The notes under the pieces: generated by a model
What the model was told of the DNA's origin: nothing
The model's input: only the letters and a program-made list of their open reading frames with translations
The model's database searches: none
Shown: piece after piece, positions 24,541-62,867 of the stretch
How positions within the stretch are numbered: position 1 is the first letter of the stretch
How the letters are laid out: each line of letters opens with the position of its first letter
Program-made: the position numbers and the translations under genes
Source: Cornus controversa
Taxonomy: Eukaryota; Streptophyta; Magnoliopsida; Cornales; Cornaceae
NCBI GenBank assembly: GCA_026545225.1
Contig: CM048848.1
Span: forward strand, 25,770,806 to 25,834,805
Direction of reading: 5' to 3'
DNA: 64,000 bases

Positions 24541-24660
24541 GCATCTCGATCAATCGAGATGTTGATCTCGATTAATCGAAATCTCGATTGATTGAGATCT
24601 CATTTTGATTGATCGAAATCTTGATCAATCAAGATCCAATCTCGATTGATCGAGATTCTA
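24541..24660. repeat. GATC palindrome array in LTR of A
   Basis: Alternating ATCTCGATCAATCGAGAT-type units, some with C-to-T decay (GATTAATCGA, GATTGATTGA). It lies about 125 bp upstream of the TATATATA tract, as in M. Confidence 0.85.
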
Positions 24661-24783
24661 CATAACCCACTTGGCCACTTGCTCACCTGCTCTCCCACTT
24701 GCAACAAAATCCCCCTTTTTGCACGACTTAGGGGGATTGTCTGACTTGAACAAGACCCTTGGGGACCTTCTTGATACAAGGGA

Positions 24784-24811
24784 TATATATATTGATATAT
24801 ATATATATGGT
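24784..24811 (+). promoter_or_regulatory. Probable LTR TATA tract of element A
   Basis: Two blocks of alternating TA (ATATATATATTG, then ATATATATATATATGG). The same tract lies downstream of the palindrome array in every Athila LTR here (about 770-805, 33601-33635, 45183-45217, 59430-59461). Assignment as the promoter is inferred from position. Confidence 0.5.
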
Positions 24812-25788
24812 GGACCCCAAGGTTGAAAAGGAAGCCAAGAAAAGCACAAAAGGGCCATATCTCTCATATCTCACATATCTCTCAACATACATCAGACCAT
24901 CCAAGGAGAGACCTTCGGGAGAGGAAGAAGAGGAGCTGAACCAGACCAAGAAGCTTCACTTTCTTCATCAATGGAAGGGTGCAAGGCTGCCATGACCAAC
25001 TAACTCCTCCACTAGGGTGTGGTTGACACACCTAGCCATGTAAACTTGTTCATTTTTGTAGCACTTGGGGATTTGTAGTTAAATGTTGATTATTTAGCCT
25101 AGTGAATATGTACACAAATACATTTCTTTTATATATTCATTTGATTTTGAGTTTATTCTTGTCTTAGAGTAGATTTTGTCACTTGAATGCACAACATTTG
25201 GATATTCCACAAGAAGTGCAAATGATGGCTAGATAATGGTGCTTAAATGAATGTGTGATGTTTGCTTTTATAGACCATGCCAAGATAAGGTAGTTTGGAT
25301 GCATGTAGGGTTCACTTAGAGAGTAGGGTAATTAGGTAGTTAGTTAGGTTGAAGAGCTATGCTTGTTGAAGATGGATTATGATAGCTTAGCACACACATT
25401 GATCTTTTGATATGTCATTGAGGTCACAAGCCTAATGACATTGTTAGGCATTTAGCTTATGAATCCCATGCTTGCTACACTTATGAACATGTGAATGGTT
25501 AGTGGTGGAAACCACCACTGGCTCTCTCTCCCAACTCAACTCTTTAATTTTATTGTCATTTCATTCATGCAATAGATTATAAACAAAAATCCAAAAACCT
25601 ATTTTTAGAATTAAAGTAGAATTAATCTTCCTTTAAGGAAATTTCGACTAGCCCTCGTGGGATCGATACCCTCTATATAGAACCTTATCTACAAATATTC
25701 GTGCTCTTGCGAGTGGTTAAATTATATTTTGATAAAAAGGGCAAAATTAAGCTTACAATTTAATCCGAGTTTAGCCACATCAAAATTT

Positions 25789-30089: not shown

Positions 30090-31596
30090 TGATTCGTGTG
30101 TGAGTGTGACTCAAAAAGTATACCAATTAAAATTTTCCACACTTCGCAATAGAACGAATTCCTTGCAGAATAGGGCTATCGAAAGGAATGGGTATCGTAC
30201 CTCAGGGATTATGTTCTGATGAGTTGGAACACAGAACTAATTCTAATTAAATTTATAAGAAAATAATTCTGATTTTTAACTAATTAAAAAGATAAAATAA
30301 AATAAATCAAAGGTAAACAGATAATGAAGATAATAAGAGAGAAACCTAGGGTGTTTGACTTCACCACTAACTCCACAATCAATGGTCAATTGAATCAACT
30401 ATAGGGGAATTACATCATGCATAAGTGGTGTCGGTGGCTACAAGCACACCTTCATCCGTCAAGAAGATAACATATGATTAAGGCTAAGCCATGGACTATC
30501 TTCGATTGGCATGGGCCATCTGCCTAACTACTCTAATCTAGGGTGCAGTATGGTTCATCTTCTCTAGGCATAATCCATCAAAGCTCATAATAATATATTC
30601 AGTGATTACCATTATGTAATAATCTCTCTCATGATCACAGAAAACAAAAGAGATTGAGTTCAATAACAACAACTAAATATCTAAGACAAGATAAGAAATC
30701 ATTGAGATTGAATTTACAAGACTTTTATTGCTCAATTCATTAATAAGAATCCTCACAATTACACAATCTATGCATGTATATAAAGGTCCCCAATAATTAA
30801 AACAATCAAACCATTGATGCTTTGTTAGGGCTACATCAAAACCCTAGTGGATGAACTAGCCGCTCATGGTAGAAGAAGCTTCAACTGTTGAGGAAGAAGA
30901 CATCATCTTTCTGAATTACGCGTATGACTTCGTTCTCCAATGGCTCTGCAATATGTTCTGTTCTCTTCTCAGCCCTCTCAGACTCTCCAATCTCTCTGTG
31001 TAAGCTCTCCCTCTTCAGCCTCCAAGTCTTCACTTTATTCCCCAAGAGAATACACCAAAGTCCTAATCCAATTAGGAATTAATTAGGGTTTCCCGCAGCA
31101 CTAATCAGGTGGGTTTTTCCTGCTGACTTCGGCCCAACTTTTGACCCACTAGAAGTCCGATTCACGGAATTTTCGTGAAATACAAAAGTGTGCAGAATCA
31201 AATTTCGTTCAACCCCACGTGAAAATAATGTCGATTTGAGGCTCGGAAATAAGACTTCTGGTCCGTTTTCCAAAACGGGATTAAGACTGCATTATGCGCA
31301 GATTTGGGCTTCAGGCCCGAAACCTTCTTAAGCAGCTGTAATTCTCTTGGACCTCTTTCTTGGGCTGATTTGAGTTGAAATAAATGGTTGAGTGAATCTC
31401 CTTGATGTAGGCTTCATCTCACCATCTTGGATGTCTTCTTTAAAAGCCCAAAAGCTTGGTTTTAACTGAAATACTCATTAAGGCCCTGAAAATACAGAAA
31501 ACACTAAAACAAAGTAAAATAACAAAATAATCTATCACTAAGAGAATAAAATACATAAGTTAAGAGGCTAGAATGCGTAACATTCAACGCCGATCA
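30090..31596 (-). mobile_element. 3' LTR of element C
   Basis: Plus ends TGATTCGTGTGTGAG (30090) and AACGCCGATCA (31596). The polypurine tract (minus AAGTTTGGGGGTG) abuts at 31597-31609. Nearly identical to 51871-53377. It lacks the palindrome array found in the LTRs of A and M. Confidence 0.95.
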
Positions 31597-32630: not shown

Positions 32631-34055
32631 TGATGTGGTCGGAACTAAATTATATTGCAAGCTTAATTTTGCCCTTTTTATCAAAATATAATTTAACCAC
32701 TCGCAAGAGCACGAATCTTTGCAGATAAGGTTCTATATAGAGGGTATCGATCCCACGAGGACTAGTCGTTAATTGTCATAGAGAAAGATTAATTCTACTT
32801 TAATTCAAACAAAACAGATTTTTGGTTTTGTGATTAGAAACTATTGCATAAAGGAAATGACAATAAAATTAAAAAGTAAAGTTGGGAGAGAGAACTAGGG
32901 TTGGTTTCCACCCCTAGCCATTCACATGTTCATAAGTGTAGCAAGCAAGGGATTCATTAATTAAATGCCTAACAATGACATTAGGCTTGTGACCTCAATG
33001 ACATATCAAAAGATCAATGTGTGTGCTAACCTATCATAATCCATCTTCAACAAGCATAGCTCTTCAACCTAACTAACTACCTACTTACTCTACTCTCTAA
33101 GTGAACACTACATGCATCCAAACTACCTTGTCTTGGCATGGTCTATACAAACTAGCATCACACATTCATTTAAACACCATTATCTAGCCATCATTTGCAC
33201 TTCTTGTGGAATATGCAAATGTTGTGCATTCAAGTGACAAAACCTACTCTAAGACAAGAATAAATTCCAAATCAAATGAATATATAAAAGAAATGTATTT
33301 GTGTACATAATCACTAGGCTAAATAATCAACATTTAATTACAAGTCCCAAGAGCTACAAAGATGAACAAGTTTACATGGCTAGGGGTTGAAACCAACACC
33401 CTAGTAGAAGAGTTAGTTGCTCATGGTTGCCTTGCACCCTTCCATTGATGAAGAGAATGAAGCTTCTTGGTCTGGTTCAGCCCTTCCTCTTCCTCTCCCG
33501 AAGGTCTCTCTCTTCTTCCTCTGATTTGTATGTGTTGAGAGATATCTGAGATATGTGGCTTTTGGTGCTTTTTGTATGCTTTTTGGCTCCCTTGGGCCCA
33601 CCATATATATATATATATCATTATATATATCTCTTGTATCAAGAAGGCCCCCAAAAGTCTTGTTCAAGTCAGACAATCCCCTTAAGTCGTGCAAAAAGGG
33701 GGATTTTGTTGCAAGTGGGAGAGCAGGTGAGCAAGTGGCCAAGTGGGCTCTGCAGCATTTCGATTGATCGAAATTGCATTTCGATTGATCGAGATTTCGA
33801 TCAATCGAAATGAGATTTCGATCAATCGAAATTTCGATTGATCGAAATCCACATCTCGATTGATCGAAATGCCTTGGCAACAGTTTCTGATTTCATCTCT
33901 TGACTGCAGAAAACTTCCAACTTTGCTCCATTTACTCCAATACCTGCAATACATCAAAAACACAAAAATACCGTAAACATATCTCGGTAAACGCAAAAAT
34001 GGAACTAACATATGCAATAAAGAGGGTTCAAATGCATAGAATTGAACACTTATCA
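32631..34055 (-). mobile_element. 3' LTR of element M, 1425 bp
   Basis: Minus start TGATAAGTGTTC at 34055 after polypurine tract AAGTTTGGGGGTG (34056-34068). Minus end CCGACCACATCA at 32631. The palindrome array is at 33756-33870 and the TATA tract at 33601-33635. The internal sequence is nearly identical to 44216-45439. Confidence 0.95.
33756..33870. repeat. GATC palindrome array in LTR of M
   Basis: About six ATTTCGATTGATCGAAAT or ATTTCGATCAATCGAAAT units in alternating orientation, better preserved than in element A. About 120 bp upstream, in LTR sense, of the TATATA tract. Confidence 0.9.
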
Positions 34056-35875: not shown

Positions 35876-37099
35876 CTACTCGAGGGCGGGTGGTGGTGGT
35901 GGTGGCTCGGTGGGAGCAGAAGTGGAGGTGGAGGCTCGACCTGCGAACAGGAACTGCAGATCCTGCCGGAAGGCTCGGAACTCATCTAAGATCGCTCTCT
36001 GGCCCTGCACCAGAGAAGAAATGTCCGTCCGAATACCCGCCAGCTGACTCTGCGTCACCTGGACGTGCTCGTCAAAACCCTGCTGGAGCCGCTCTACGTC
36101 AGCCGCCAGGCAGGAATAGCCTGTCGCTAAGATATCATGCCGCTCTGCAGCGACATCCATCTCCTCCTCCTCCATCTCCTCGTCCTCCGCCTCAGCCCCT
36201 GCTGGCTCTCCCTCATCCATCTCCACTGGGGCATCCATATCTACATCGTCTGGTGGATCACCCTGATGGTCCTGTCGCTCTAAGTGTCGCCTCACCCGAT
36301 CCCACTGAGTAGATGTGAAGCGGGTGGGCGGTGCCAACTGAATGTCAGTCCGACTGACTGGTATACTGGCACTGCTGAGAAAAGCGGCGATCAGGAATGG
36401 AAAGGGAAGCCGCCAACTCGCTGTTCTCCTCTTCCTCTTGTTGACGAGGCCATCCCAAACTTTGTGCATCTGCCCCCAGATAAGCGATGGGACAGAAAAC
36501 CAAGCGCCTGTATGGAAAGCATAGAGGCAACGGAGGAGGTCACCCCTGCGCTCGGCCACGTGCTGCAACGGACACGCGTTCTTGAGGAGAACGGTGTCCA
36601 GGAACCAATATCTGCTCGGGCACATCGACTTGGACGTGCAGTTGTGGTTGGGCGTGGTAAACGCCCCGCCACACATGTCCATCACTATCGAGAAGAGCGT
36701 GGTATCTGCTGGGAGCGCGGCACTATAGAGTGGCTGACCGTCCGGGCCAACCATGTCCGGCGGCTGCTGGTGAGGAATGCCGAGCATATGAGCAATCCGG
36801 CTCGGCGTAATCGTGATCGTGACTGTGGCCACGGTAGTCTCGAGTGTATCTGGCGCTGTGCAGGAGTAGGTCATATGCTCGTAAAAGACCTGCACTAGGC
36901 GCTCGTGTGCCACGTCTGTGGGAGGCACGCATAGCCGGTCGAGGCGACGCCTCCTGAGCTCGGCAACCGTCCACTCGGTGTCGGGACGCCTCTCAAACTC
37001 GGCTAAGTCGAAAACCTGCTCCGGGTGGAACTTCCGAGACCGGAAGGCTCGCCCGGGCACGTCACGAACAGCACCGGCGGCGTTCTTCACTCTTGCCAT
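35876..37099 (-). CDS. ORF2 of element M, 407 residues, unknown function
   Basis: The product resembles what databases call putative plant transposon protein (I recall Transposase_32, PF20167); its function is unknown. The start at 37099 (MARVKN) is chosen because the longer frame from 37129 begins inside a likely intron, and the copy in A starts at the same Met and has the same length. It has an N-terminal globular part with RRRRLDRLCVPP and TITITPSRIAHMLGIP, and a core WFLDTVLLKNACP...ERRGDLLR...WGQM shared with element C. An acidic stretch (EDEEMEEEEMD, about residues 305-315), a probable coiled coil (about 330-382) and a PPPPPP tail follow. There is no signal peptide or membrane segment, which argues against an envelope protein. 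It sits where Athila elements carry their extra gene. Confidence 0.85.
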   Translation of the reverse strand: MARVKNAAGAVRDVPGRAFRSRKFHPEQVFDLAEFERRPDTEWTVAELRRRRLDRLCVPPTDVAHERLVQVFYEHMTYSCTAPDTLETTVATVTITITPSRIAHMLGIPHQQPPDMVGPDGQPLYSAALPADTTLFSIVMDMCGGAFTTPNHNCTSKSMCPSRYWFLDTVLLKNACPLQHVAERRGDLLRCLYAFHTGAWFSVPSLIWGQMHKVWDGLVNKRKRRTASWRLPFPFLIAAFLSSASIPVSRTDIQLAPPTRFTSTQWDRVRRHLERQDHQGDPPDDVDMDAPVEMDEGEPAGAEAEDEEMEEEEMDVAAERHDILATGYSCLAADVERLQQGFDEHVQVTQSQLAGIRTDISSLVQGQRAILDEFRAFRQDLQFLFAGRASTSTSAPTEPPPPPPALE

Positions 37100-37113: not shown

Positions 37114-37516
37114 CTGCACTGGATTCCAAAAGGTACGTAAATAAAAGATGAATAAGAAGAAAGTGAAACTACTACTAGACTAAAAGAATAAAATAAAAAT
37201 AAAAAAAATAAAAATGAAGTCCTAGTCCAAGGTACTGACAAAAATGCAAAAAGTTGCACTCGAAGAGGCAATGTGAACAGGCGCAACCGAAACGAAGGTG
37301 CCACGGTTATACACCGAACACTAAGCGTTTGAAATGAAGAAAATGCCAAATCCCACTCCCGCTTGAATTCCTACCCCCCCCCGAAACCCACAAAAACTGG
37401 ATTCGGACATCGCACTCGCAACCATCCACCCCAACATGATCTAACTATGTTTATTCCGCTGTAAAACTATCAAAAATGGCGAGAGAATAAACAAAAAGTA
37501 GCCATGCATCACTTAC
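37114..37516 (-). other. Predicted intron in the 5' leader of ORF2 (M)
   Basis: On minus a perfect donor CGAG|GTAAGT starts at 37516 and an acceptor AGTGCAG| ends at 37114, 14 nt before the ORF2 ATG. Element A has the same donor and acceptor at 55608 and 55993. The T-rich interior fits a plant intron. Not confirmed by transcripts. Confidence 0.65.
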
Positions 37517-37737: not shown

Positions 37738-37745
37738 TTTAAATA
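37738..37745 (-). promoter_or_regulatory. TATA-like box upstream of ORF2 (M)
   Basis: Minus CTATTTAAACCG, followed by pyrimidine-rich CTTCCCTCCC. It lies about 30 bp downstream of the palindrome array and is conserved in A (55375-55382). Proposed core of an internal ORF2 promoter. Confidence 0.6.
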
Positions 37746-37776: not shown

Positions 37777-38132
37777 ATTTCGATTGATCAAAATCTTGCT
37801 TCGATCAATCGAAACTAACTTCGATGGATTGAGATTGTCTCTTCGATCAATCGAACATTCCTTCCCTAAATCACATTTTTACTTCGATCAATCGAACATT
37901 TAATTGATGCAATCGAACTTTTAGTTCGATCAATCGAAATCCAATTTCGATCAATCGAAAGTTTCGATCGATCAAAGACCTATCGAAGTGCAATCGAAGA
38001 ATATCACCTCTCGGGACTTTGGACTTGGCAAATCTTTGCAATTTTTCGATCAATCGAAACCAAAATTTCGATCAATCGAAATTTTCGATTGATCGAAATT
38101 TTGGTTTCGATCAATCGAAATGCTCAAAAACA
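37777..38132. repeat. GATC palindrome array in the pol-ORF2 spacer of M
   Basis: More than ten copies of TTCGATCAATCGAA or TTCGATTGATCGAA (dense at 37795-37860, 37880-37975 and 38045-38125). The motif class is the same as in the LTR. The array lies between the pol stop and the TATA-like box of ORF2. Confidence 0.9.
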
Positions 38133-44215: not shown

Positions 44216-45439
44216 TGATGTGGTCGGAACTAAATTATATTGCAAGCTTAATTTTGCCCTTTTTATCAAAATATAATTTAACCACTCGCAAGAGCACGAA
44301 TCTTTGCAGATAAGGTTCTATATAGAGGGTATCGATCCCACGAGGACTAGTCGTTAATTGTCATAGAGAAAGATTAATTCTACTTTAATTCAAACAAAAC
44401 AGATTTTTGGTTTTGTGATTAGAAACTATTGCATAAAGGAAATGACAATAAAATTAAAAAGTAAAGTTGGGAGAGAGAACTAGGGTTGGTTTCCACCCCT
44501 AGCCATTCACATGTTCATAAGTGTAGCAAGCAAGGGATTCATTAATTAAATGCCTAACAATGACATTAGGCTTGTGACCTCAATGACATATCAAAAGATC
44601 AATGTGTGTGCTAACCTATCATAATCCATCTTCAACAAGCATAGCTCTTCAACCTAACTAACTACCTACTTACTCTACTCTCTAAGTGAACACTACATGC
44701 ATCCAAACTACCTTGTCTTGGCATGGTCTATACAAACTAGCATCACACATTCATTTAAACACCATTATCTAGCCATCATTTGCACTTCTTGTGGAATATG
44801 CAAATGTTGTGCATTCAAGTGACAAAACCTACTCTAAGACAAGAATAAATTCCAAATCAAATGAATATATAAAAGAAATGTATTTGTGTACATAATCACT
44901 AGGCTAAATAATCAACATTTAATTACAAGTCCCAAGAGCTACAAAGATGAACAAGTTTACATGGCTAGGGGTTGAAACCAACACCCTAGTAGAAGAGTTA
45001 GTTGCTCATGGTTGCCTTGCACCCTTCCATTGATGAAGAGAATGAAGCTTCTTGGTCTGGTTCAGCCCTTCCTCTTCCTCTCCCGAAGGTCTCTCTCTTC
45101 TTCTTCTGATTTGTATATGTTTTGAGAGCTATGAGATATGTGGCTTTTGGTGCTTTTTGTATGCTTTTTGGCTCCTTTGGGCCCACCATATATATATATA
45201 TATCATTATATATATCTCTTGTATCAAGAAGGCCCCCAAAAGTCTTGTTCAAGTCAGACAATCCCCTTAAGTCGTGCAAAAAGGGGGATTTTGTTGCAAG
45301 TGGGAGAGCAGGTGAGCAAGTGGCCAAGTGGGCTCTGCAGCATTTCGATTGATCGAAATTGCATTTCGATTGATCGAGATTTCGATCAATCGAAATGAGA
45401 TTTCGATCAATCGAAATTTCGATTGATCGAAATCCACAT
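44216..45439 (-). mobile_element. 5' LTR of M, truncated at its outer end
   Basis: Matches 32631-33860 almost base for base, then stops at CCACATC (45439), inside the palindrome array. The outermost roughly 190 bp of the LTR (equivalent to 33862-34055), including the terminal TG, is missing. The adjoining sequence (GATTGTCCTCAATG) belongs to C's 3' noncoding region. The TATA tract (45183-45217) and most of the array are retained. Confidence 0.9.
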
Positions 45440-45707
45440 CGATTGTCCTCAATGTACACCCAATTAAAGCATAGAGAAGAGTAAGAACGATGTTACCAGG
45501 ACCAAGGAGTAGTGGCAAGAAAATAGAGCACATCACTAGCATGAAGGCAAGGCAAGCACACCCCCAAACTTGGATGATTCAACCTGTCAAAACAAACCAC
45601 TATACCCCAAAGATCAAGTGAAAATAGTATGGGTGAAAATAAATATGAAAGAAAAAAAATCCTAAATAAAAAAATAAAAAAAAAAAAAAATATTTTTTTC
45701 ATTTTTC

Positions 45708-45816: not shown

Positions 45817-47040
45817 TTAAGGATGTGGTGGTGACTGAGCATCCGGATCTAAGTTTGCTTGGCGCATCAGTGCACGCATCATCCTCCTCATCTCTAGTTG
45901 CTCTTGGCGAGTGTCACGAAAGTGATCCACCATCTCTGCTCTCATTGCACCAAACTGTGTGGAGACCTCTGTCTGTAAGGTGCCAAACTGGGCTGTCAAC
46001 CCAGCAATCTGCCCTTCTAAGTATTGATAATCATGGCCACCAGCCTGTGCATGAACTTCCTCTTCCTCTGCCTCCATCTCCTCTGGATCATCTACCGGTG
46101 GTGGTACATCTACATGCTCTCCTCCTTGGGCCAACCGAGATACCTCACCAGGCACCGCTATGACTCTCTGGTGCATATGAGATCGACTCAAGTTCCAGTC
46201 ATGCGTGCCATAATGAAGGTCATGTGGAAAGGCAAGCTCATCCTCGTGGACTGCATACCCCTGTGTTACAAGCAACTGGTGAATAATAGTAGGGAATGGG
46301 AACTCCCAGTCACTTGCACTGTCTGGTACCTTGGCCACAACCTTGGAATAGAATTTCTCCATCTGGCCCCAGACAATCTGTGGGAGTGACAGCCAATGCC
46401 CAAAATGTATGGCATATAAGGCTCGGAGGAACTCTTGACGTCTTTCGGTTTTATGTCCAATTGGACATACATTCTTGAGTAGCACAGCGTCAAGGAACCA
46501 TAAATGATTTGGCATTGAAGACTTTGAAGCTGCATTCCTTTTTGGCCCGGAGAATTGGTTGGCACACAATCGTGCAACCATATTGCCCACCGACAACTCG
46601 TCGGGTAAAGGAGTGTAGATATGAGATAAATCAGCTGGGCATTCATGAGGACAACCCATGGCAATGGCAATGGATGACATGTCAACTCGAACTATTGTTC
46701 CATCTACGGAAGAAGTAAGCACATCCCGCTCATCAGGTTTCGGCATCAAGTTTTGATAAAATACCTTGACAAGCCTCGGGTAAATGGTAGATGATAGTGG
46801 AACAAAAATGGATGCCGACCGACGACGACGGATGTCGGAAATCCCCCATCGTGTCTCGGGAAACATACCATAAAGTTCAGCTATGTCAAACGTTGTTTCA
46901 TAGTTCAACGCCCTTGGATGCCATCTCTCTTGAATACCGTCTCGGCGAGATCGTGAAGAACCTGTGGTCGGATCATTCCTCGCTCGGCGAGGATTACGTG
47001 AACTTGAAGCATCTTGGTGACTTGCTCTCTTTGGTGCCAT
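45817..47040 (-). CDS. ORF2 of element C, 407 residues, unknown function
   Basis: Intact homologue of the M and A ORF2, diverged over most of its length but same size. Basic, serine-rich N-terminus (RNPRRARN, SRSRRD, about 12-34), possibly nuclear-targeting. Conserved core WFLDAVLLKNVCP...ERRQEFLRALYA...WGQM (about 181-227). Acidic patch EEMEAEEEEV (about 320-329). Probable amphipathic coiled coil with 7-residue periodicity (LEGQIAGLTAQFGTLQTEV, about 341-395). No signal peptide or membrane segment. Same start context as its relatives, ending just before the 3' noncoding region. An open ORF2 in an element without RT suggests ORF2 is retained for a purpose. Confidence 0.85.
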   Translation of the reverse strand: MAPKRASHQDASSSRNPRRARNDPTTGSSRSRRDGIQERWHPRALNYETTFDIAELYGMFPETRWGISDIRRRRSASIFVPLSSTIYPRLVKVFYQNLMPKPDERDVLTSSVDGTIVRVDMSSIAIAMGCPHECPADLSHIYTPLPDELSVGNMVARLCANQFSGPKRNAASKSSMPNHLWFLDAVLLKNVCPIGHKTERRQEFLRALYAIHFGHWLSLPQIVWGQMEKFYSKVVAKVPDSASDWEFPFPTIIHQLLVTQGYAVHEDELAFPHDLHYGTHDWNLSRSHMHQRVIAVPGEVSRLAQGGEHVDVPPPVDDPEEMEAEEEEVHAQAGGHDYQYLEGQIAGLTAQFGTLQTEVSTQFGAMRAEMVDHFRDTRQEQLEMRRMMRALMRQANLDPDAQSPPHP

Positions 47041-47450
47041 AGAAGTAGAAAAAGTGTAGTTGAGGAATTAAATCGAACACTTGGTGTGCACAATTCTTTT
47101 GTAACCTTCAACCTCCTTTTTTCGGCAATTTTTCCACCCAAATCGAACAAGTAATTGCACCAATTTGATCCCCCAAACTTGGTCTTCAAAAGCCCTCAAA
47201 AAGATTTGAATAATTTCTTCAAGGAAAAACTTCACTTACTTTGATGTTGAACTTGAAAAAGTGTGAGCTTCCTTTGAGAACTAGTGATTTTTGATCCACT
47301 TTGATGTTGAAGTTGATGTTAATCAATGTTGAATCCTTGTATAATAATCACTAATTGAAGAAATTAGTTTTCCGGATGATATAGGACTTGAATTGGAGTT
47401 CAAAGAGGTAGAAGATGTAAGTAGTAGCAACCAAATAGGATAAGGAGTCC

Positions 47451-47457
47451 ATTTATA
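47451..47457 (-). promoter_or_regulatory. TATA box upstream of ORF2 (C)
   Basis: Minus CTCTATAAATGG, a near-consensus plant TATA box. It lies about 35 bp downstream of the palindrome array and about 410 bp upstream of the ORF2 ATG. A possible donor (minus GTAAGT at 47239) follows, but no convincing acceptor was found. Confidence 0.65.
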
Positions 47458-47490: not shown

Positions 47491-47695
47491 GGGCGATCGA
47501 TCCCCCTTGGAGTGGGCGATCGATCGCCCACCTGCTGGTGGGGATCTTCAAGAATTCCCATGGGGCGATCGATCCCCCTTGACTGGGGCGATCGATCCCC
47601 CCCCTGAAGGCCTGTTTGACCCTCCATCGCCCAAGTTCGACCGAGACTTGATATTTTTGAGTCTCCATCGCCCAAGGTCGACCGAGAGCACGATT
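47491..47695. repeat. GGGCGATCGATC palindrome array in the pol-ORF2 spacer of C
   Basis: Includes a perfect 16-bp palindrome GGGCGATCGATCGCCC (47514-47529), GGGCGATCGATCCCCC at 47491 and about 47562 and 47585, and two copies of ATCGCCCAAG(G/T)TCGACCGAG (47626-47645, 47667-47686). The core GATCGATC is related to, but differs from, the GATCAATC arrays of A and M. The rest of the spacer (47041-47929) shows nothing coding. Confidence 0.9.
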
Positions 47696-47929: not shown

Positions 47930-50900
47930 TTAAGTCGGATAGATGGGATCCGTCAAGTCGACGGACTCCACGTCTCTTCTTGGCACACATCCTTCCACAC
48001 AATGTTTCAACCTTTGGCCATTAACTTTCATCAACGTATTATCTCTAAAGCTTCGAATTTCCACGGCACCATGAGGAAAAACCGAAATCACTTGGAATGG
48101 TCCATCCCACCTTGAACGCAATTTTCCGGGGAACAACCGAAGCTTGGAATTGAAGAGCCACACTTTATCACCTGGAGAGAAGGACTTTCGTGAGATGTGT
48201 CGATCATGAAATGCTTTCGTCCTCTCCTTGTAAATTCGTGAACTTTCATAAGCATCACGTCTAAACTCTTCTAATTCATTCAATTGCAACTTCCTCTCTT
48301 CCCCAGCTCTTTTTGCATCGAAATTGAATTTTCGAATTGCCCAAAGTGCCTTGTGCTCAATCTCGACTGGAAGATGACATGCTTTCCCATACACTAACCG
48401 ATATGGTGACATACCGATAGGGGTCTTGTAAGCAGTCCGATACGCCCATAGTGCTTCGCTCAGTCGTAACGACCAATCTCTTCTATCTGGTCTCACTGTC
48501 TTCTCGAGAACATGCTTAATTTCTCGATTGGACAGCTCTACTTGCCCACTTGTTTGAGGATGATAAGGCGTTGCCACCTTATGTGTCACTGAATATTTAG
48601 CAAGCAAACCTCTCAAGAATTTATTGCAAAAGTGAGTACCACCATCACTGATCAAGGCTCGAGGAATTCCAAATCGACTCAGAATATTCTCATGCATGAA
48701 TTTGATTACCACCTTGTGATCATTGGTTCGAGTTGCAATGGCCTCCACCCACTTGGAGACATAATCCACTCCAACCAGAATATATTCGTAGCCAAAAGAA
48801 GGTGGAAAGGGTCCCATAAAATCAATTCCCCAAACATCAAAAATCTCCACCACCAGAATGGGGCTCATTGGCATCATATCACGTCTTGACATTGAACCCA
48901 ATCTTTGACAACGATCACAAGTCTTACAGAAAACATATGCATCGTGAAATAGAGAAGGCCAAAAGAATCCGCATTGAAGTACTTTTGCCGCTGTTTTCCT
49001 TGCACTGAAGTGGCCTCCACATGCCAATGAGTGGCAGAACTTGAGAATATCTTGAAACTCATGGTCTGGGACACATCGCCGAATGATCTGATCTGGACAA
49101 TATTTAAATAACTCTGGATCCTCCCAAAAGTAATGATGCACTTTAGCGAAAAATCGATCACGTTCTCGCTTGGTCCAGTCTTTTGGCACCTTTCCCGTGG
49201 CTAAATAGTTCACAATATCAGCATACCATGGTGTGGAGTTGTCGGACACTCCAAACAATTGCTCCCTCTGCAGTGTTTTGGAAAGTGTAGTGCATACAGA
49301 AGTTACCACCATGGTAGAAATTTGATCTTCAAACACCTTCTTCTCCTTCTGTTTTTCTTGCACCCTTACTTCATCTACAGATTCAATCACCTCTTCAGAG
49401 TCCATGAAGAAAACATCAGTCTGATCTGGAGGATTCTCAACAGCATTGAAAATATTAAGTTTAACCTTCATGTTGCCAAAGGAAATATCCATGATCCCTG
49501 ACCTACAATTTATGCAAGCATCAGCAGTAGCTAAGAAAGGTCGACCAAGGATCACAGGAATGTGCCTCTTCGGATTGTGAACCGGCTCAGTGTCAAGTAC
49601 AATGAAATCAACAGGAAAGTAGAACTTGTCCACTTTAATGAGCACATCTTCTATGATTCCTCGGGGTTGCTTTGTTGATCTGTCTGCAAATTGTAATACC
49701 ACCGAGGTAGGCTTCAATTCTCCCAAGCCCAATTGTAAGTAAACTGAATAGGGTAGCAAATTAACACTTGCACCCAAATCAAGAAGAGCTTTATCCACAT
49801 GGTGCTCCCCAATAATGCATGAGATAGTTGGAGCACCAGGATCTTTGTACTTGGGAGGAGTACACTGCTGAATTATTGAACTTACTTGTTGTGGCAGCAT
49901 TACTTTCTTTGGCACATGGCTTTTAGAACGCCTTTTCTGAGTGCACAAGTCCTTCAAAAATTTTGCATAAGGAGGAATTTGCTTGATGGCATCAAGGAGT
50001 GGCAAATTAATCTTCACTTGGCGAAACACCTCCATCATGTCATGCAGCTTGTCCCCTTGCTTCCCCAATTTAGATGCTTCAAGAAAACGTTGTGGGAAAG
50101 GAGCCTTGGGCTCATAAGGAATTTCAGCACTTGGACTTGTGATCACTTTTTCTTCTTCTTTCTTCTCACCCACCTTATTGTCAATTATTTTCCCACTTCT
50201 CAAAGTGGTAATGGCTTGAACTTGCTCATGGTGTGGGTTGCTTGTGGAAGCTTGCATCCCTCTTGGATTAGCAATTGGTTGACTAGGGAGCTTCCCTTCT
50301 TCTCTTCTACTCAATGAAGTAGCAAGCTGTCCAAACTGAGATTCCAGTTTGGCAATGGATTGAGAATGCGAGTGCACTAGCTGAACTGTAGATTGTACTG
50401 TTGCTGCAGTAGCTTGCACTGTCTCTATAAGAGAATCAAGCTTGTCAAATTTAGACAAGGTAAGAGTCAGCTTGTCTTCAATAGCAGAAATTCTTTGGGC
50501 CATAGGACTTTGTGTTTGATATTGCTGTTGAGGCACAAAAGTCCTAGGTTGATATGATGGTTGCATTGCTGCCCCTTGGTTACTGTAAGAAAAACCAGGA
50601 TGATTCCTCCATGTGGGATTGTAAGTATTACCTCGTGGAGGATTCATTGGTCCAGTGAAAGTAGCTTGAACTTGCTCATGTTGAATATCAGAAAATTGCC
50701 CCATTGAAGGACAATTGCTCACATTATGCATAGGACTAGAGCAGAATTCACACGGGCCTAGCAATGAAGAATTTGAAGCAGAAGGAGTTTGATTGGCAGC
50801 CATAATTGCTGCTACCTTCTGTGCAATTAAATCAATATCAGTTGGCATAGCTTCTGAAGCACCAACCTCAAAAATCCCATCAGTCTTCCTGGTAGTGGCA

Positions 50901-51724
50901 GGTCTGCTAGAACTAGTAGAGGACACATGTTGTAGAGAGTTGTCACTAAGATTTTCAAATAAGGTCCATGCCTCTTCTTCACTCTTCAACATAAAAGTAC
51001 CTCCACATGACGCATCAACCATCTGTCTGTTGGCTTCTGTGAGCCCTTCATGAAAACTCTGCACTAGTTGCCACTTAGGAACTTGATGATGGGGACACTT
51101 CCTAAGAAGGTCCTTGAATCTTTCCCATGTCTCATAAAATTGTTCCCCCTCATGTTGGGAGAAACCAGTGATAGCACGTCTGAACTGATTGGTCTTCCCT
51201 ATCGGAAAATACTTCTTGAGAAACTCATGTTGCATCTGAGTCCAAGTCGTGATAGAACCAGCCGGTAGAGAGTTGAACCAATACTTTGCTTTGTCTTTCA
51301 AAGAGAATGGAAAAAGTCTCATTCTGAAAGCATCTTCAGAGAAGTTGTGAATTTTTGTAGTTGAGCACACTTCAATGAAGTCATCCAGATGCTTGTAAGG
51401 GTCTTCTTGAGTCAGCCCAAAATAAGATGGTAGCATCTGAATAATGCTGGACTTGATCTCATAATTCTGTGCTGTGACATTGGGCAGTTGAAAACCTGCT
51501 GGCGAGGTATATGTCTCAGGAACATAGTAGTCCCTAAGCAATCTAGCTCTTTCTCCATCAGCATTAGGAACAAGGTTATTATTCCTCTCTTCTGCCATGT
51601 CTTCAATTATTTCTTCCTCTTGCACACTGGTGTCAACAGGGATGTTCCTCTGTTGTCTAAGAGTACGTTCAGGCTCAGGATCAAGAGGTATCAAAGGATC
51701 AGCCACAGAACGACGACCTTGCAT
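47930..51724 (-). CDS. Gag-protease-integrase fusion without RT/RNase H (1264 residues)
   Basis: One open frame. Gag about 85-245 ([23 protein letters not shown]). Zinc knuckle C325, C328, H333, C338. Protease with D649 in DLGAS and [13 protein letters not shown] at about 725-737. Then, after a short linker (about 766-820), directly the segment before integrase ([18 protein letters not shown]). HHCC finger about 898-941. Catalytic D968, D1027, E1063 (D-x35-E). C-terminus VNGQRLKHC. Compared with M, about 600 residues covering all of RT and RNase H are absent, and the frame is retained across the join. Such a product could assemble particles, cleave and integrate, but not reverse-transcribe. 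Confidence 0.95.
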
Positions 51725-51870: not shown

Positions 51871-53377
51871 TGATTCGTGTGTGAGTGTGACTCAAAAAGT
51901 ATACCAATTAAAATTTTCCACACTTCGCAATAGAACGAATTCCTTGCAGAATAGGGCTATCGAAAGGAATGGGTATCGTACCTCAGGGATTATGTTCTGA
52001 TGAGTTGGAACACAGAACTAATTCTAATTAAATTTATAAGAAAATAATTCTGATTTTTAACTAATTAAAAAGATAAAATAAAATAAATCAAAGGTAAACA
52101 GATAATGAAGATAATAAGAGAGAAACCTAGGGTGTTTGACTTCACCACTAACTCCACAATCAATGGTCAATTGAATCAACTATAGGGAAATTACATCATG
52201 CATAAGTGGTGTCGGTGGCTACAAGCACACCTTCATCCGTCAAGAAGATAACATATGATTAAGGCTAAGCCATGGACTATCTTCGATTGGCATGGGCCAT
52301 CTGCCTAACTACTCTAATCTAGGGTGCAGTATGGTTCATCTTCTCTAGGCATAATCCATCAAAGCTCATAATAATATATTCAGTGATTACCATTATGTAA
52401 TAATCTCTCTCATGATCACAGAAAACAAAAGAGATTGAGTTCAATAACAACAACTAAATATCTAAGACAAGATAAGAAATCATTGAGATTGAATTTACAA
52501 GACTTTTATTGCTCAATTCATTAATAAGAATCCTCACAATTACACAATCTATGCATGTATATAAAGGTCCCCAATAATTAAAACAATCAAACCATTGATG
52601 CTTTGTTAGGGCTACATCAAAACCCTAGTGGATGAACTAGCCGCTCATGGTAGAAGAAGCTTCAACTGTTGAGGAAGAAGACATCATCTTTCTGAATTAC
52701 GCGTATGACTTCGTTCTCCAATGGCTCTGCAATATGTTCTGTTCTCTTCTCAGCCCTCTCAGACTCTCCAATCTCTCTGTGTAAGCTCTCCCTCTTCAGC
52801 CTCCAAGTCTTCACTTTATTCCCCAAGAGAATACACCAAAGTCCTAATCCAATTAGGAATTAATTAGGGTTTCCCGCAGCACTAATCAGGTGGGTTTTTC
52901 CTGCTGACTTCGGCCCAACTTTTGACCCACTAGAAGTCCGATTCACGGAATTTTCGTGAAATACAAAAGTGTGCAGAATCAAATTTCGTTCAACCCCACG
53001 CGGAAATAATGTCTATTTGAGGCTCGGAAATAAGACTTCTGGTCCGTTTTCCAAAACGGGATTAAGACTGCATTATGCGCAGATTTGGGCTTCAGGCCCG
53101 AAACCTTCTTAAGCAGCTGTAATTCTCTTGGACCTCTTTCTTGGGCTGATTTGAGTTGAAATAAATGGTTGAGTGAATCTCCTTGATGTAGGCTTCATCT
53201 CACCATCTTGGATGTCTTCTTTAAAAGCCCAAAAGCTTGGTTTTAACTGAAATACTCATTAAGGCCCTGAAAATACAGAAAACACTAAAACAAAGTAAAA
53301 TAACAAAATAATCTATCACTAAGAGAATAAAATACATAAGTTAAGAGGCTAGAATGCGTAACATTCAACGCCTATCA
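51871..53377 (-). mobile_element. 5' LTR of element C, 1507 bp
   Basis: Minus start TGATAGGCGTTGAATGTTAC at 53377, plus-strand left end TGATTCGTGTGTGAG at 51871. Same length as the 3' copy. Differences seen by eye: one near 52188, three at 53000-53022 and one at 53373. Confidence 0.95.
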
Positions 53378-54959: not shown

Positions 54960-55345
54960 GCATTTCGATTGATCGAAGCTAGGATCTCGATCAATTGAGA
55001 TTTCAATTGATCGAGATTTCAGTCTCGATTGATCGAAAAATTGCAGAGAATTGCAAATCCAAAAGTCCCAAGAGGTAGTATTCTTTGATAGCATTTCGAT
55101 TGGTCTTCGATCGATCGAAAATTTCGATTAATCAAAGAGGAATTTCGATTGATCGAAGTAAATTTTGATTGAACGAAATAAATTTTTGATTGATCGAATT
55201 AAAAGTCTCGATTCACCAAAGACAGTCTCGATTAATTGAAGGAGAGATTTTGATCGATTGAAGGTGATCTCGATTGATCGAAGTTGGATTTCGATTAATC
55301 GAAATCTCTATTAATTGAGATGCACATCTCGATCAATCGAGATGC
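54960..55345. repeat. GATC palindrome array in the pol-ORF2 spacer of A
   Basis: Decayed counterpart of 37777-38132 in M: many TTCGATTGATCGAA or CTCGATTGATCGAG units, several with GATTAATC or GATTGATT changes. It ends about 30 bp before the TATA-like box. Confidence 0.9.
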
Positions 55346-55374
55346 ACGCGATGCCTGCACGTGAGCCGAACTCC

Positions 55375-55382
55375 TATTTAAA
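55375..55382 (+). promoter_or_regulatory. TATA-like box upstream of ORF2 (A)
   Basis: CCTATTTAAACCGTTGGACT, identical in its core to M. A second A/T box (ATTTAAAAAAA) follows at 55401. Confidence 0.6.
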
Positions 55383-55607
55383 CCGTTGGACTTCCCTCTC
55401 ATTTAAAAAAAAAACCATCCGACTTCTTCCCTTCCTCCGTGCGATCCAGAGTCTTTGCAAGAGCCATTCCGCACGTGATCTTCCATCGCTGATCATCCAC
55501 CACCGTTCGACATAGTCCGAGATCGCCGCGAGCACACTCACGCTCATCTCTTCGCGGCTGCGAGTGGGTCTTCTTCTGTTTGTGCCGTTCATCTTCTTCC
55601 TCTTGAG

Positions 55608-55993
55608 GTAAGTGATGCATGGCTACATTTTGAGTCCTTTCTCGCTATTTTTGATAGTTATACGGTGTAATAAACATATACAGTTGATGTTGGGTTGGAT
55701 GGGTGCATTTGCGTTTTTCGTAATGAAATTTTGCGGGTTTTTGGGGGTAGGAATTCATGTAGGAGTGAGATTTGGCATTCTTTTTGTTTCAAATGCTTAG
55801 TGTACAGTTTGTAGCCGCGACCCATCGTTTCGGTTGCATCCGCTCGCGCTGTCTCTTTGAGAGCGACTTTTTGACTTCTTGTCAGCATCATGGACTAGGA
55901 CCTCATTTTTATTTTTCTTCTTTTATTTTTATTCTTAGTTTATTATTCCTTTTAATTTCTTTGTATTTACGTAATTTTTGGAATAAAGTGCAG
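55608..55993 (+). other. Predicted intron in the 5' leader of ORF2 (A)
   Basis: Donor TTGAG|GTAAGT at 55608; acceptor AAAGTGCAG| at 55993; T-rich interior with a long pyrimidine stretch 55912-55965. The ORF2 ATG follows 14 nt after the acceptor, exactly as in M. Confidence 0.65.
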
Positions 55994-56007
55994 ACCGCTC
56001 CGAGATC

Positions 56008-57231
56008 ATGGCGAGGGTGAAGAATGCACCCGGTGCAGTTAGAGACGTGCCCGGGCGAGTCTTCCGGTCTGGAAAGTTTCACCTGGAGCATACATTTGAC
56101 TTGAGAGAGTTCGAGACGTGTCCCGACAGCGCGTGGGCTGTCGCCGAGCTCAGGAGGCGTCGCGTCGACCGACTATGTGTGCCTCCCACTGACGTGGCAC
56201 ACGAGCGCTTAGTGCAGGTCTTCTATGAGCGCATGACCTACTCCTACACAGCGTCGGACACATTAGAGATGGTCGTGGGAACCATGACTATTACGATTAC
56301 GCCGAGCCGGATTGCACAGATGCTCGGCATCCCTCACCAGCAGTTGCCAAATCTGGTTGACCAAGACGGTCAACCGCTTTTCAGGGCCGCGCTTCCAGTA
56401 GACACGACACTGTTCTCCATCGTGATGGACATGTGTGGCGGGGCATTTACCACGCCCAGTCACAACTGCACATCCAAATCGATGTACCCGATCAGACTGT
56501 GGTTCCTGGACACCGTTCTCATCAATAACGCGTGTCCCCTGCAGCACGTGGCAGAGCGTAGGGGCGACCTCCTCCGTTACCTTTATTCTTTCCACACGGG
56601 CACGTGGGTTTCTGTCCCATGACTGATCTGGGGGTAGATGTACAAAGTCTGGGATGGCCTCGTCAACAAGAGGATGAGGCGATCAGCGAGCTGGCCGCTT
56701 CCCTTTCCTTTCCTAGTCGCAGTTTTTCTTAGTCGTGCCAGCATACCGGTCAGTGATACTGACATCCAGTTGGCACCGCCCACCCGCTTCACATCTTCTC
56801 AGTGGGAGCTGGTGAGGCGACACTTAGAGTGACAGGACCACCAGGGCGATCCACCTGACGATGTAGATATGGATGCCCCAGAGGAGATGGAGGAGGGAGA
56901 GCCTGCAGGGGATGGGTCTGAGGACAAGGAGATGGAGGATGAGGAGATGGATATGGCTGCAGAGCGGCACGACATCCTGGCGACGGGCTATTCCTGCCTG
57001 GCGGCTGATGTTGAGCGGCTCCAGCAGGGTTTTGACGAGCACGTCCAGGTGACGCAGAGTCAGCTAGAGGGCATTCGTTCAGACATTTCTTCTCTGGCTC
57101 AGGGTTAGAGGGCGATTCTAGACGAGTTCCGAGCCTTCCGGCAGGACCTGCAGTTCCTGTTTGCAGGACGAGCTTCCACCTCCACTTCTGCTCCCACCGA
57201 GCCACCACCACCACCACCCACCCTCGAGTAG
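56008..57231 (+). pseudogene. ORF2 of element A, four nonsense codons
   Basis: Same length (408 codons including stop) and frame throughout as M ORF2, starting MARVKNAPGAVRDVPGR. It is interrupted by stops near 56620, 56635, 56830 and 57106. Relative to M these correspond to Ser, Gln, Arg and Gln codons, the last three explained by C-to-T changes. No indels. The WFLDTVLINNACP core, acidic segment and proline-rich tail remain recognisable. Confidence 0.9.
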
Positions 57232-59049: not shown

Positions 59050-59643
59050 TGATATGTGTTCAATTGCGTTTAGCGAGATATGTTTACAGTATTTTTGTGT
59101 TTTTGATGTATTGCAGGTATTAGAGTAAATGGAGCAAAGTTTGAAGCTATTTGCAGCTGAAAAGGAAAAGTCAGAATTGCAGCCAAAGGCATCTCGATCA
59201 ATTGAGATGTTGATCTCGATTAATCGAAATCTCGATTGATCGAGATCTCATTTCGATTGATCGAAATCTCGATCAATCGAGATCCAATCTCGATTGATCG
59301 AGATTCTGCAGAACCCACTTGGCCACTTGCTCACCTGCTCTCCCACTTGCAACAAAATCCCCCTTTTTGCACGACTTAGGGGGATTGTCTGACTTGAACA
59401 AGACCCTTGGGGACCTTCTTGATACAAGGGATATATATATTGATATATATATATATATATGATGGGCCCCAAGGTTGAAAAGGAAGCCAAAAAAAGCACA
59501 AAAAGGGCCATATCTCTCAACATACATCAGACCATCCAAGGAGAGACCTTCGGGAGCGGAAGAAGAGGAGCTGAACCAGACCAAGAAGCATCACTTTCTT
59601 CATCAATGGAAGGGTGCAAGGCTGTCATGACCAACTAACTCCT

Positions 59644-62093
59644 TGATGAACCTAGAGGGGGAGGGGGTGAATAGGTTCTTCTCTTTTTCTTACTTATATT
59701 TGCGGGTTTGGCTGGCACATGCAATCACATAATTTTATGGACACACAAATTTATAGAGGAAACCCCAAGGTGGGGAAAAACCTCTTCGAACTGAGCTCCA
59801 CTATGTCAGAAAGGGTAGTACAGTGAATCTCTCAATCACTCTCTCACTCACCCAACTCACAACATAGTTCGCTCCAGCACTCACCCAGTTCACAGCCTCC
59901 CTAGGCCTGAACCACTCTCACCAAATCTCACAACAGCTTTTCCGCTCTCAATCCCAACTTGGACTTCCCAAAGCCCAAGTTATCTCACCTCAATCTCACC
60001 ACAATCACTCACACTCCCCCTGTCCAAAGTATCCCAATACTTGGACTGTACATAGTGATAGTGGAGTCTGTTCGATGTCTTGAGCAGCGGCAACGTCTTC
60101 AAGCTTTGTAACTTGGTCTTCAAAAATGGTCTTCAAGTATGATATGGTCTTCAAAGGATGATCTTCAACTCTTCCAACTCTAACAGTTAGTCTTTAATGT
60201 CCGGTATGACAAATGACACAGTCACTTGTCTTCTTGGTAGATCACGACACTTGAACTTCTTCAATAATGTGCTTCAATAAGAACACCCTCAAGGTGTGGC
60301 TACAACGAACTTGTAGTAGTTGCTCCCTTTCAATGAATCGCAATCTCAGCTTCTTCAAAACTCTGCATTAGCTTGATATTCTTCATGATCAAATACTCTT
60401 GCTATTCTTGAATTTTGAACCTGTTTAAATAATTTACACACAACTGCAACAAGGGTAGACGTTAGTAGCATATGCAGTTTAAGATATAAATAGCAATTTA
60501 AGAGTGACAAATTAGCTATTCCAAATTAGTAAAACAGAATTCCAAATCAGCAAAACAGAATTCCAAGTGCACAGAGTTAATTCCAAATTAACAGAACGAA
60601 TTCCAAATCAGCAGATTCAATTCCAGATTAGCAGAACGAATTCCAAATCAGCAGATTCAATTCCAGATTAGTTGAACGAATTCCAAATCCGCAGATTCAA
60701 TTCCAGATTAGCTGAACGAATTCCAAATCAGCAGATTCAATTCCAGATTTCATAACCAGCAACAATCAGCAACAGTAAATTAGGAGATCTAAGTATCAAA
60801 TTTCAGCTCCAGCATTTTCAGCATTTATGTTAAACTTTCAGCATAAATTAGTCTCACGAACCAGCATTTAGAGTCTCAAAAATCAGCAATATAATTTCAG
60901 CATTTTCGAACTCAAAATTCAGCAACATTAACACTTAAGGTTCAGCATGATAGCATAGAGATTTCAGCAATTTCAAACTCAAGGTTTAGCAAATTCATAT
61001 TTTAGAAGCAAGTATTCAGCAGTTTAAATCAACATTGTCAGCCCACTATTCAGCAAAAACAGATAGAAGAACAGAGCATTTTTAAGATTAAAATTCAGTC
61101 AGCAATGTCCACCAATTTTATCAGCAAGATCAATTCATCATAGACACAACAAGGAACTTGCAAGATTGATTTCAACAACCAAACTCAATGAGAGCTTTCA
61201 AACAAAAACACGTGTGAATGTGTGAAATCATGAGCATGTTTTGTGTAATGAGAATGAAAGTTCTGATGAAGAGATTTTACCCGAAATTAACTCAAGATGA
61301 ATGGAATCATACTTACAGAGATTTAGGAACCTCAACAAAGTTGGTATATTCTGGAACGTCAATGAAGGAGTTGAACCGAGATTGTTGTTCGAAGGGAGTG
61401 AACCCGGTTCACAGTTCGTAGAGAATAAAGATGTTCAAGAGAAACCCAGTCTGCTGAAGGTCGCCGGAGAAGAAGAATCATAAACAGATCGGCGGCGAAG
61501 TGACCTTCTTTGATCCAAGATGCAACCAGCCATCTGCGCTTCCAATGATCGGTGATGAGTGATGACGGCGACGGTGACTCTAGAGATCAACGGTGTAGAC
61601 GCCAGCCATTCTCACAGATTCTCTTTCAGCTCTCTATACGCCGCCCCAAGCCCCATTTTCTCACACTTTTCGCTAATACTTTCTCTCTCTCACTTGTCTC
61701 TTTTTCGGCTGCCCTAGTCTCCTTTACTCTACTTCTTTATATATGAATACATGAGCCTTTAAATTCCAAGCAACCCTACTGTCCTGATAAAATATATATA
61801 TCTATATTTTATATCCCTTTTGAAATGCAGCCCTAGCAAATTAGCTTTTCCAAAATGCCCCTTGCACTATTTCCATTTGACCTTATTTGAAAATTGACGA
61901 TACTATCCCTGCAATTTTAATTAGTGCAAATACATGGCATAATATAATAAAGCAGGACTAATCATAAAATCAAAAGATTAAGATTATAAATTTGCATTCA
62001 ATATAAAATTACCCTCATACCCCTACAAGTGCTTTTGACATTAAAACTTGGGCAAACATATTCATGGACTTTTCGGACTATCACTCCTCCACT
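59644..62093 (-). mobile_element. Solo LTR, 2.45 kb, probably Ty1/copia, TSD CTCCT
   Basis: Plus ends TGATGAACCTAGAGGGGGAG (59644) and TTTTCGGACTATCA (62093), flanked by CTCCT at 59639-59643 and 62094-62098. The minus sense would end CCTATTCACCCCC...CTAGG...TCA, a style of LTR terminus common in plant copia elements. It contains a 40-bp repeat. No coding capacity; short frames near 61218-61746 are not supported. Confidence 0.88.
60595..60750. repeat. 40-bp tandem repeat, about 4 copies
   Basis: GAACGAATTCCAAATC(A/C)GC units with TTCCAAATC starting at 60601, 60641, 60681 and 60721, exactly 40 bp apart, each ending AATTCCAGATTAG. A looser AATTCCAAAT pattern extends back to about 60520. Confidence 0.92.
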
Positions 62094-62867
62094 AGGGTGT
62101 GGTTGACACACCTAGCCATGTAAACTTGTTCATTTTTGTAGCACTTGGGGATTTGTAGTTAAATGTTGATTATTTAGCCTAGTGAATATGTACACAAATA
62201 CATTTCTTTTATATATTCATTTGATTTGGAGTTTATTCTTGTCTTAGAGTAGATTTTGTCACTTGAATGCACAACATTTGCATATTCCACAAGAAGTGCA
62301 AATGATGGCTAGATAATGGTGCTTAAATGAATGTGTGATGTTTGCTTGTATAGACCATGCCAAGACAGGGTAGTTTGGATGCATGTAGGGTTCACTTAGA
62401 GAGTAGGGTAATTAGGTAGTTAGTTAGGTTGAAGAGCTATGCTTGTTGAAGATGGATTATGATAGGTTAGCACACACATTGATCTTTTGATATGTCATTG
62501 AGGTCACAAGCCTAATGACATTGTTAGGCATTTAACTTATGAATCCCATGCTTGCTACACTTATGAACATGTGAATGGCTAGTGGTGGAAACCACCCCTA
62601 GCTTTCTCTCCCAACTCAACTCTTTAATTTTATTGTCATTTCATTCATGCAATAGATTATAAACAAAAATCCAAAAACCTATTTTTAGAATTAAAGTAGA
62701 ATTAATCTTCCTTTAAGGCAATTTCGACTAGTCCTCGTGGGATCGATACCCTCTATATAGAACCTTATCTACAAAGATTCGTGCTCTTGCGAGTGGTTAA
62801 ATTATATTTTGATAAAAAGGGCAAAATTAAGCTTACAATTTAATCCGAGTTTAGCCACATCACTATC

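Follow-up and report, generated by a model that had tools for sequence, protein, structure and literature searches.

Palindrome arrays followed by a putative core promoter upstream of ORF2 in Athila-like retrotransposons of Cornus controversa

A 64-kb stretch of the Cornus controversa genome (contig CM048848.1, positions 25,770,806 to 25,834,805), referred to here as the window, includes three nested long terminal repeat (LTR) retrotransposons, named A, C and M, in which the spacer between pol and an additional open reading frame (ORF), ORF2, carries an array of palindromes followed by a TATA box. Comparison of the window with itself located element A on the plus strand, with LTRs at 24357-25782 and 59064-62862, the second of them split by an insert. 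A is interrupted at about 30088 by element C, which lies on the minus strand between LTRs at 30090-31596 and 51871-53377 that are 99.7% identical. Element M, also on the minus strand, is nested inside C, with 99.3% identity between its two LTR copies (32631-33855 and 44216-45440). According to Pfam, M codes in a single frame for gag, protease, reverse transcriptase (RT), RNase H and then integrase, which is the gypsy order, and the pol of A and that of C align with M pol. All three have a gypsy-type gag-pol, without RT in the case of C, followed by a separate ORF ahead of the 3' LTR; this architecture, together with the label given in a preliminary description of the window, suggests that they are Athila elements. 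The ORF2s are found at 56008-56622 in A (plus strand, ATG at 56008, 204 codons open in the window copy), 35876-37099 in M (minus strand, ATG at 37099, 407 amino acids) and 45817-47040 in C (minus strand, ATG at 47040, 407 amino acids). Their products match the Pfam family PF20167 (Transposase_32) with E values of 2.7e-10 for C, 1.3e-8 for M and, weakly, 0.0095 for the short frame of A, all three matches falling under the curated cut-off of that family.

The spacer of A includes, between nucleotides 54964 and 55341, 12 near-palindromes with at most one mismatch to the core CGATNNATCG, 7 of them strict, followed by the G-box-like sequence CACGTG (55358-55363) and the TATA box TATTTAAA (55375-55382). 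The same order is found on the minus strand in M, where 12 near-palindromes (9 strict) occupy nucleotides 37779-38119 and TATTTAAA is located at 37738-37745. The motif common to A and M, hereafter A/M, is TTCGAT-nn-ATCGAA, with a centre that is mostly TG or CA. Downstream of the TATA box lies a putative leader intron, which in A would encompass 386 bp (55608-55993, GAG/GTAAGT to TGCAG/AC) and end 14 bp upstream of the ORF2 start, and which in M would have the same splice sites (37114-37516). The strict core occurs at 41 sites in the window, all of them within A/M-type LTR arrays, one of which belongs to an LTR fragment at 2-1222, or within the three spacer arrays. The commonest palindrome of 4+4 nucleotides was found 7, 9 and 4 times per 600-bp stretch in A, M and C, whereas none of 30 dinucleotide shuffles per stretch held more than 3, 2 and 2, respectively. 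Just 3' of pol and upstream of the A array, the segment 54836-54921 is among the best conserved non-coding stretches between A and M (identity over 40 bp of 0.92-0.94).

In the spacer of C, also read on the minus strand, four palindromes around GGCGATCGATCGCC are located between nucleotides 47600 and 47492 at steps of 23, 49 and 23 bp, and the TATA box TATAAAT (47451-47457) follows 34 bp after the last one. The preliminary description had placed an array and then a TATA box in all three spacers, and their coordinates were confirmed with a gap of 33-34 bp; it had missed the G-box-like site and the leader intron of A and M. It had also extended the array of C from 47491 to 47695, of which only the four palindromes stand, the remainder being a direct repeat with GGTCGA that does not include the C palindrome. 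The C motif, GGGCGATCGATCGCCC, had been regarded as different from that of A/M; the arms do differ, but both share the core CGAT-nn-ATCG, and the change of motif therefore sits in the arms and is not a complete one. An LTR-like repeat at 20600-20900 has two C-like palindromes (20748-20815) with GGTCGACC between them; it is present at several places in the genome, paired about 7.7-8.0 kb apart, and is apparently another family having the motif of C.

Arrays of the A/M motif are also present in the LTRs, as had been proposed. In the 5' LTR of A the array (24545-24654, plus strand) lies upstream of a TATA tract at 24784-24808, and the 3' LTR includes another at 59195-59300. The M arrays are found on the minus strand at 33761-33866 in the 3' LTR and at 45346-45429 in the 5' LTR, which is short of its first 200 bp or so.

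A genome search with each spacer type (A, M and C) gave 40 scored places, 8 of which were examined as loci in each case, window copies included, resulting in an A/M set of 16 loci (8 A-type and 8 M-type) and a C set of 8. As had been suggested, the spacers of related copies were inspected for the array and the TATA box, and both are kept in 16/16 A/M and 8/8 C-type loci. The octamer TATTTAAA, the donor GAG/GTAAGT and the acceptor TGCAG are each present in all 16 A/M loci, and CACGTG is found within 40 bp upstream of the TATA box in 15 of them. The distance from the last 14-bp palindrome to the TATA box is 33 bp in 15 A/M loci, 39 bp in the other one and 34 bp in every C locus; it is therefore near-constant between A/M and C although the ORF2s of M and C share only 33% of aligned residues. 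Identities between the A and M types, gaps left out, are 92.6% at the end of pol, 88.1% before the array, 80.3% in the array (11% gaps), 78.6% from array to TATA box, 92.2% in the TATA octamer, 88.4% in the following 45 bp, 70.5% in the remaining exon 1, 77.9% in the intron, 67.2% in the last 14 bp before the ATG and 82.7% in the first 600 bp of ORF2. The octamer and the 45 bp after it thus exceed the remaining exon 1, the intron and the beginning of ORF2.

A search of the same genome for PF20167 yielded 150 scored places, 30 of which were examined as loci and grouped by upstream similarity into S (21 loci) and G (9 loci). At least 4 strict cores of the S palindrome, AAGTCGACTT, are present in 18 of the 21 S loci (the number is not reached in L025, L035 and L044), with a shuffle maximum of 3. 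The weaker G palindrome, GGACCGGTCC, precedes ORF2 with 2-4 relaxed copies in 8 of the 9 G loci (none in L026) and follows it with 3-4 copies in all nine; its strict core exceeded the shuffles in none of the nine loci, so the evidence for G consists of its recurrence, at fixed spacing, in copies that are related to one another. The pol upstream of S is copia-type (RVT_2, with integrase before RT) and so is the gag upstream of G (PF14223). S and G are Ty1/copia, Sirevirus-like elements, and the idea that they could be further Athila families was ruled out by these ORFs. The ORF2 leaders of C and G, a gypsy and a copia element, share GCACACCAAGTGTTCGA shortly 5' of the start codon (47073-47089, minus strand, in C; 1223-1239 of locus L049 in G), a likeness that may be due to chance, to common descent or to a phrase widespread in plants.

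Two more PF20167 places were added: T, which carries the G motif, and U, a copia element in which pol ends directly upstream of four copies of TTTCAG(N4)CTGAAA (at 1482, 1504, 1526 and 1548 of L061), followed by TATATATA from 1574, 10 bp after the last palindrome, and by the ORF2 ATG at 1748. The 4-base gap of this palindrome is beyond the limit of 2 bases used in the automatic scan, so it was found by reading the sequence; the motif was recognised after the fact, and its place, spacing and presence in the LTR are as expected. In the 3' LTR of U (L062) the palindrome is repeated eight times ahead of TATATATA at 1928, every 22 bp except for one step of 49, and in the 3' LTR of one S and one G copy the family motif likewise lies ahead of a TATATATA, the bounds of the S, G and U LTRs being deduced from the polypurine tract and not from a comparison of two LTRs. 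When five motifs were tabulated against twelve regions the result was nearly block-diagonal: spacer and LTR share their motif within A/M, S, G and U, the row of the C LTR is empty, and outside the blocks there are only weak matches to the S motif in U (2 and 1), whose spacer copies resemble the S core (AG-YCGM-CT) and differ most in the arms. The claim that the arrangement is conserved while the motif has changed is therefore valid beyond the three elements for which it was made and reaches Ty1/copia families. This common layout of Ty3/gypsy and Ty1/copia elements suggests module transfer or convergence.

Spacings of 20-23 bp, about 21 bp being two turns of DNA, account for 39 of the 70 adjacent spacings of up to 60 bp in twelve regions of A/M, C, S and G. 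The A/M arrays alternate with steps of 16-17 bp (13 of the 70), those of S often follow 22, 49 and 22 bp, and U has 20-23 bp in 3/3 cases in the spacer and 6/7 in the LTR, so that such spacings occur in all five motif families.

Taken as a whole, this layout indicates that in A, M and C the spacer between pol and ORF2 is probably an RNA polymerase II promoter for ORF2, and that in A/M a single regulator would control both genomic RNA and ORF2 mRNA. In A, M, C and U the sequence gives good support to a putative promoter ahead of ORF2, in view of the proximity of the array to the TATA box, the CACGTG and splice sites of A/M, and the layout of U. The array would function as an enhancer, its palindromes being paired sites, mostly about two helical turns apart, to which a dimeric regulator may bind; the G-box-like CACGTG, in A and M, and the TATA box would follow, and transcription would start about 30 bp past the latter. 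The resulting untranslated leader, from which an intron would be spliced in A/M, would precede the ORF2 start codon. Since equal sites are located upstream of the LTR TATA in A/M, the same regulator could set the level of both RNAs. This last proposal, already made in the preliminary description, is strengthened by the agreement of motif between LTR and spacer in A/M, S, G and U, and fails for C.

Several observations weigh against the promoter or against the strength of the case for it. A 2020 review, as far as the portion available states, has env-like genes transcribed from the 5' LTR promoter (PMC7264820). The LTR of C has no copy of the C motif, whose array is confined to the spacer, and none of the 29 array-bearing S and G loci has a strict TATA box in the interval from the array to the beginning of ORF2. 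The C copies are 99-100% identical and their 8/8 retention consequently says little. When the A-M alignment from pol to the ATG was scanned in 40-bp stretches, with gaps counted as mismatches, the core promoter was ordinary (0.84 from 55360, a value reached by 26% of the stretches or 16% if counted from 54960, and 0.75 from 55370), which speaks against strong selection on the core as a whole; the splice-donor zone was second best among separate stretches, with 0.934. The longest ORF2-side frame in the 8 A-type loci is only 104-339 codons, so these copies look decayed, while the M-type ORF2 is open for 407 codons in 8/8 loci, window copy included. Finally, tandem duplication ties together the spacings within a family and the independent evidence on spacing comes down to five families, two of them sisters.

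ORF2 could also be expressed by splicing of an LTR-initiated genomic RNA, as reported for barley Bagy-2, the array and TATA box being incidental or acting elsewhere. This is a published route for some env-like ORFs, acceptor sites have been predicted for Athila (PMC2829016, in the part of the text available), the review mentioned above points in the same direction, and in A and M a good acceptor does lie immediately ahead of ORF2. However, the strong donor located 386 bp upstream of this acceptor and kept in 16/16 loci would be needless in a product that uses an LTR-proximal donor, and splicing alone does not lead one to expect a TATA box at a fixed distance from the array. We consider this route quite unlikely as the explanation of the spacer.

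The palindromes might act in RNA, forming hairpins in the genomic RNA with a role in packaging, export or as a source of small RNAs, rather than binding protein on DNA. They can pair with one another, and the arrays of the spacer and of U3 of the 3' LTR are both expected in the genomic RNA. On the other hand, the five motif families have steps of about 20-23 bp, which suit the DNA helix and not RNA, and the arrays lie upstream of TATA boxes in LTRs. Nor does RNA pairing require the restricted centre of the A/M strict cores, which is TG, CA, TA or CG in 30/30 cores of five window regions; this count took in five of the seven A/M-type array regions of the window, and cores within an array are not independent. 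One base beyond the invariant flank, 25 of these 30 cores are complementary (17 T-A and 8 C-G), and one CC-centred core is carried by 5 of the 8 M-type loci. A role in RNA appears very unlikely. The possibility that the palindromes are insertion targets, for which a slight preference has been reported (PMC6911290, available in part), was rejected as it would not explain arrays before two promoters.

The comparison of S and U, made with one copy of each, bears on who reads the palindromes. Their pol proteins are 93.0% identical over 388 residues, the ORF2 products only 44.2%, and the LTR parts that flank the array zone on either side can be aligned (138 bp at 89%, 129 bp at 70.5% and 652 bp at 72.5%); no alignment was found for the array zone or the spacer, and these sister families differ in motif at both LTR and spacer. 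For M and A the identities are 95.7% in pol and 84.1% in ORF2, and for M and C 71-74% and 32.6%. In these sequences, therefore, rapid change affects ORF2 and motif together, which can mean co-evolution of a protein with its sites or exchange of linked modules, and the concerted change of motif suggests a co-evolving regulator. The match between LTR and spacer could be the result of copying only, by template switching between similar repeats in reverse transcription, with no common regulator. Copying would give the same spacing patterns at both places (22, 16-17 and 21-22 bp in A/M) and a motif that differs at both places between S and U. Nevertheless, since the S and U LTRs are alignable on either side of the array zone, a whole-block swap is insufficient, and copying explains neither the placement of arrays before two promoters nor the spacer-only array of C; we regard it as an unlikely sole cause.

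Plant LTR promoters are usually driven by host factors, and a reading that overlaps with the ORF2 promoter is that a host transcription factor, and not a protein of the element, binds the palindromes, the elements having captured host sites. This has close to an even chance of being correct. The core shared by A/M and C, the resemblance of the U spacer copies to the S core and the C-like palindrome pair at 20748-20815 are in its favor, and a comparison of Sirevirus motifs with PLACE recovered mainly sites for stress-related factors (Bousios 2010, PMC2829016). The full motifs, however, differ between families of one genome, even between sisters, and a single host factor would favour one motif. 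Such a difference of switch between sister families is a natural experiment on whether a host factor or the ORF2 product is the reader.

The product of ORF2, a frame commonly termed env-like, may itself be a dimeric transcription regulator encoded by the element, and not an envelope protein; it would bind the family palindrome in the LTR as well as in the promoter of its own gene, and would co-evolve with it. We put this forward as a tentative idea, more doubtful than probable, because the difference in motif involves LTR and spacer jointly and ORF2 diverges much more rapidly than pol, because of the charge pattern of ORF2 in M, C, S and U and a predicted helix in M, and because both the arrangement and the ORF2 domain are common to gypsy and copia elements. 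The products of M, C, S and U contain basic patches as well as a highly acidic segment, with net charges over the most acidic 30 residues of -17, -12, -14 and -18 respectively, and only -6 in G. On the Kyte-Doolittle scale the maximum over 19 residues averages 1.60 in M and 1.13-1.33 in the other products; the usual membrane level is about 1.6, so M is borderline and the rest are below it, with no clear membrane segment. An AlphaFold2 model of M ORF2 has a long C-terminal helix (residues 310-391) and is poor overall, with a mean predicted local distance difference test (pLDDT) of 44.7; a homologue search with this protein scored 7993 candidates, none of them at E <= 0.001. These features are more in keeping with a nuclear regulator than with an envelope protein, but do not prove it.

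The way in which plant retrotransposons express an additional ORF downstream of pol, and the reason for it, are a matter of continuing debate in the available portions of two papers (PMC2829016, PMC7264820). The preliminary description knew of no standard account of such a module in Athila elements, a view that finds no support in light of several precedents, the first two of them consulted as partial texts. Family-specific palindromes were described in Sirevirus LTRs upstream of the TATA box and also 5' of ENV, where an internal promoter was discussed and a promoter upstream of ENV was not conclusively identified (Bousios 2010, PMC2829016). The likeness extends to palindromes upstream of the LTR TATA in A and in one S, one G and one U copy, to the LTR array of M, and to the extra copies directly upstream of ORF2 in A, M, C, S, G and U. 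The differences are that Sireviruses, like S, G and U, are Ty1/copia whereas A, M and C are Ty3/gypsy, that A, M, C and U have a TATA box after the array, and A and M also the sites of a leader intron, and that the Sirevirus CGG-CCG core is absent (CGATNNATCG in A/M, GATCGATC in C and AGTCGACT in S), only G (ACCGGT) coming near. In Arabidopsis Athila6A an 'ENV ORF promoter' or 'internal promoter region' was named, with transcriptional start sites, ORFs and an intron defined (Panda 2016, PMC4977677). That too is an Athila element with a separate promoter for its ENV ORF, one stated to attract silencing, and the accessible part of that text mentions no palindrome array.

Two other systems are comparable, the first of them a further precedent, again on the basis of partial sources. 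The accessory gene gene23 of Grande (Gomez-Orte et al. 2013, via PMC7264820 and PMC11963269) is located between pol and the 3' LTR of a plant Ty3/gypsy element and has its own promoter; it is, in contrast, antisense to gag-pol, and an array shared with the LTR is not mentioned in the excerpts available. Foamy viruses, which are vertebrate retroviruses, have an internal promoter for their 3' genes besides the LTR promoter, both with response elements for Tas (PMC8670036), an activator encoded behind the internal promoter. The equal motif at LTR and spacer in A/M, S, G and U, though not in C, is reminiscent of this organization, and if ORF2 were indeed the regulator, which here is a hypothesis, the ORF2-palindrome circuit would be a plant counterpart of the Tas circuit. 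In the open-licence literature searched, no paper was found to describe palindrome arrays ahead of an Athila ORF2, and as far as our searches show the combination of array and putative core promoter in Athila elements is new, as is the concerted change of motif. If one family-specific switch served both the LTR and a second promoter, this would constitute a concrete, testable circuit.

The pol genes of these families showed further peculiarities. Among the 40 C-type spacers closest to that of the window copy, 24 follow a junction without integrase, with RT-RNase H upstream in the six examined as loci, and 16 follow a junction without RT-RNase H (the window copy, L024 and 14/14 others checked); an undivided pol was found in none of the 40. 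Both junctions are at the same RNase H/integrase border, as seen in the window copy (47930-51724, minus strand) and in loci L017-L024 and L064-L077, and an open frame runs through the junction in the window copy and in 5 of the 6 integrase-less loci. The integrase-less junction occurs 134 times in the genome at no more than 2 mismatches (control, 0), and the C family is possibly a bipartite, mutually complementing retrotransposon. Four A-type loci (L002, L004, L006 and L008) have a deletion from RT to integrase and retain the last 57 or so pol codons, the ORF2 promoter region and the ORF2 start; an origin of these deletions by splicing was rejected, as no clear GT-AG was found at their borders. 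In a G-type copy (L058 with L049) only some 1.1 kb separates the end of a copia-type gag frame from the ORF2 array. A complete copia pol would not fit into this space, so the copy is apparently a non-autonomous element with gag and ORF2.
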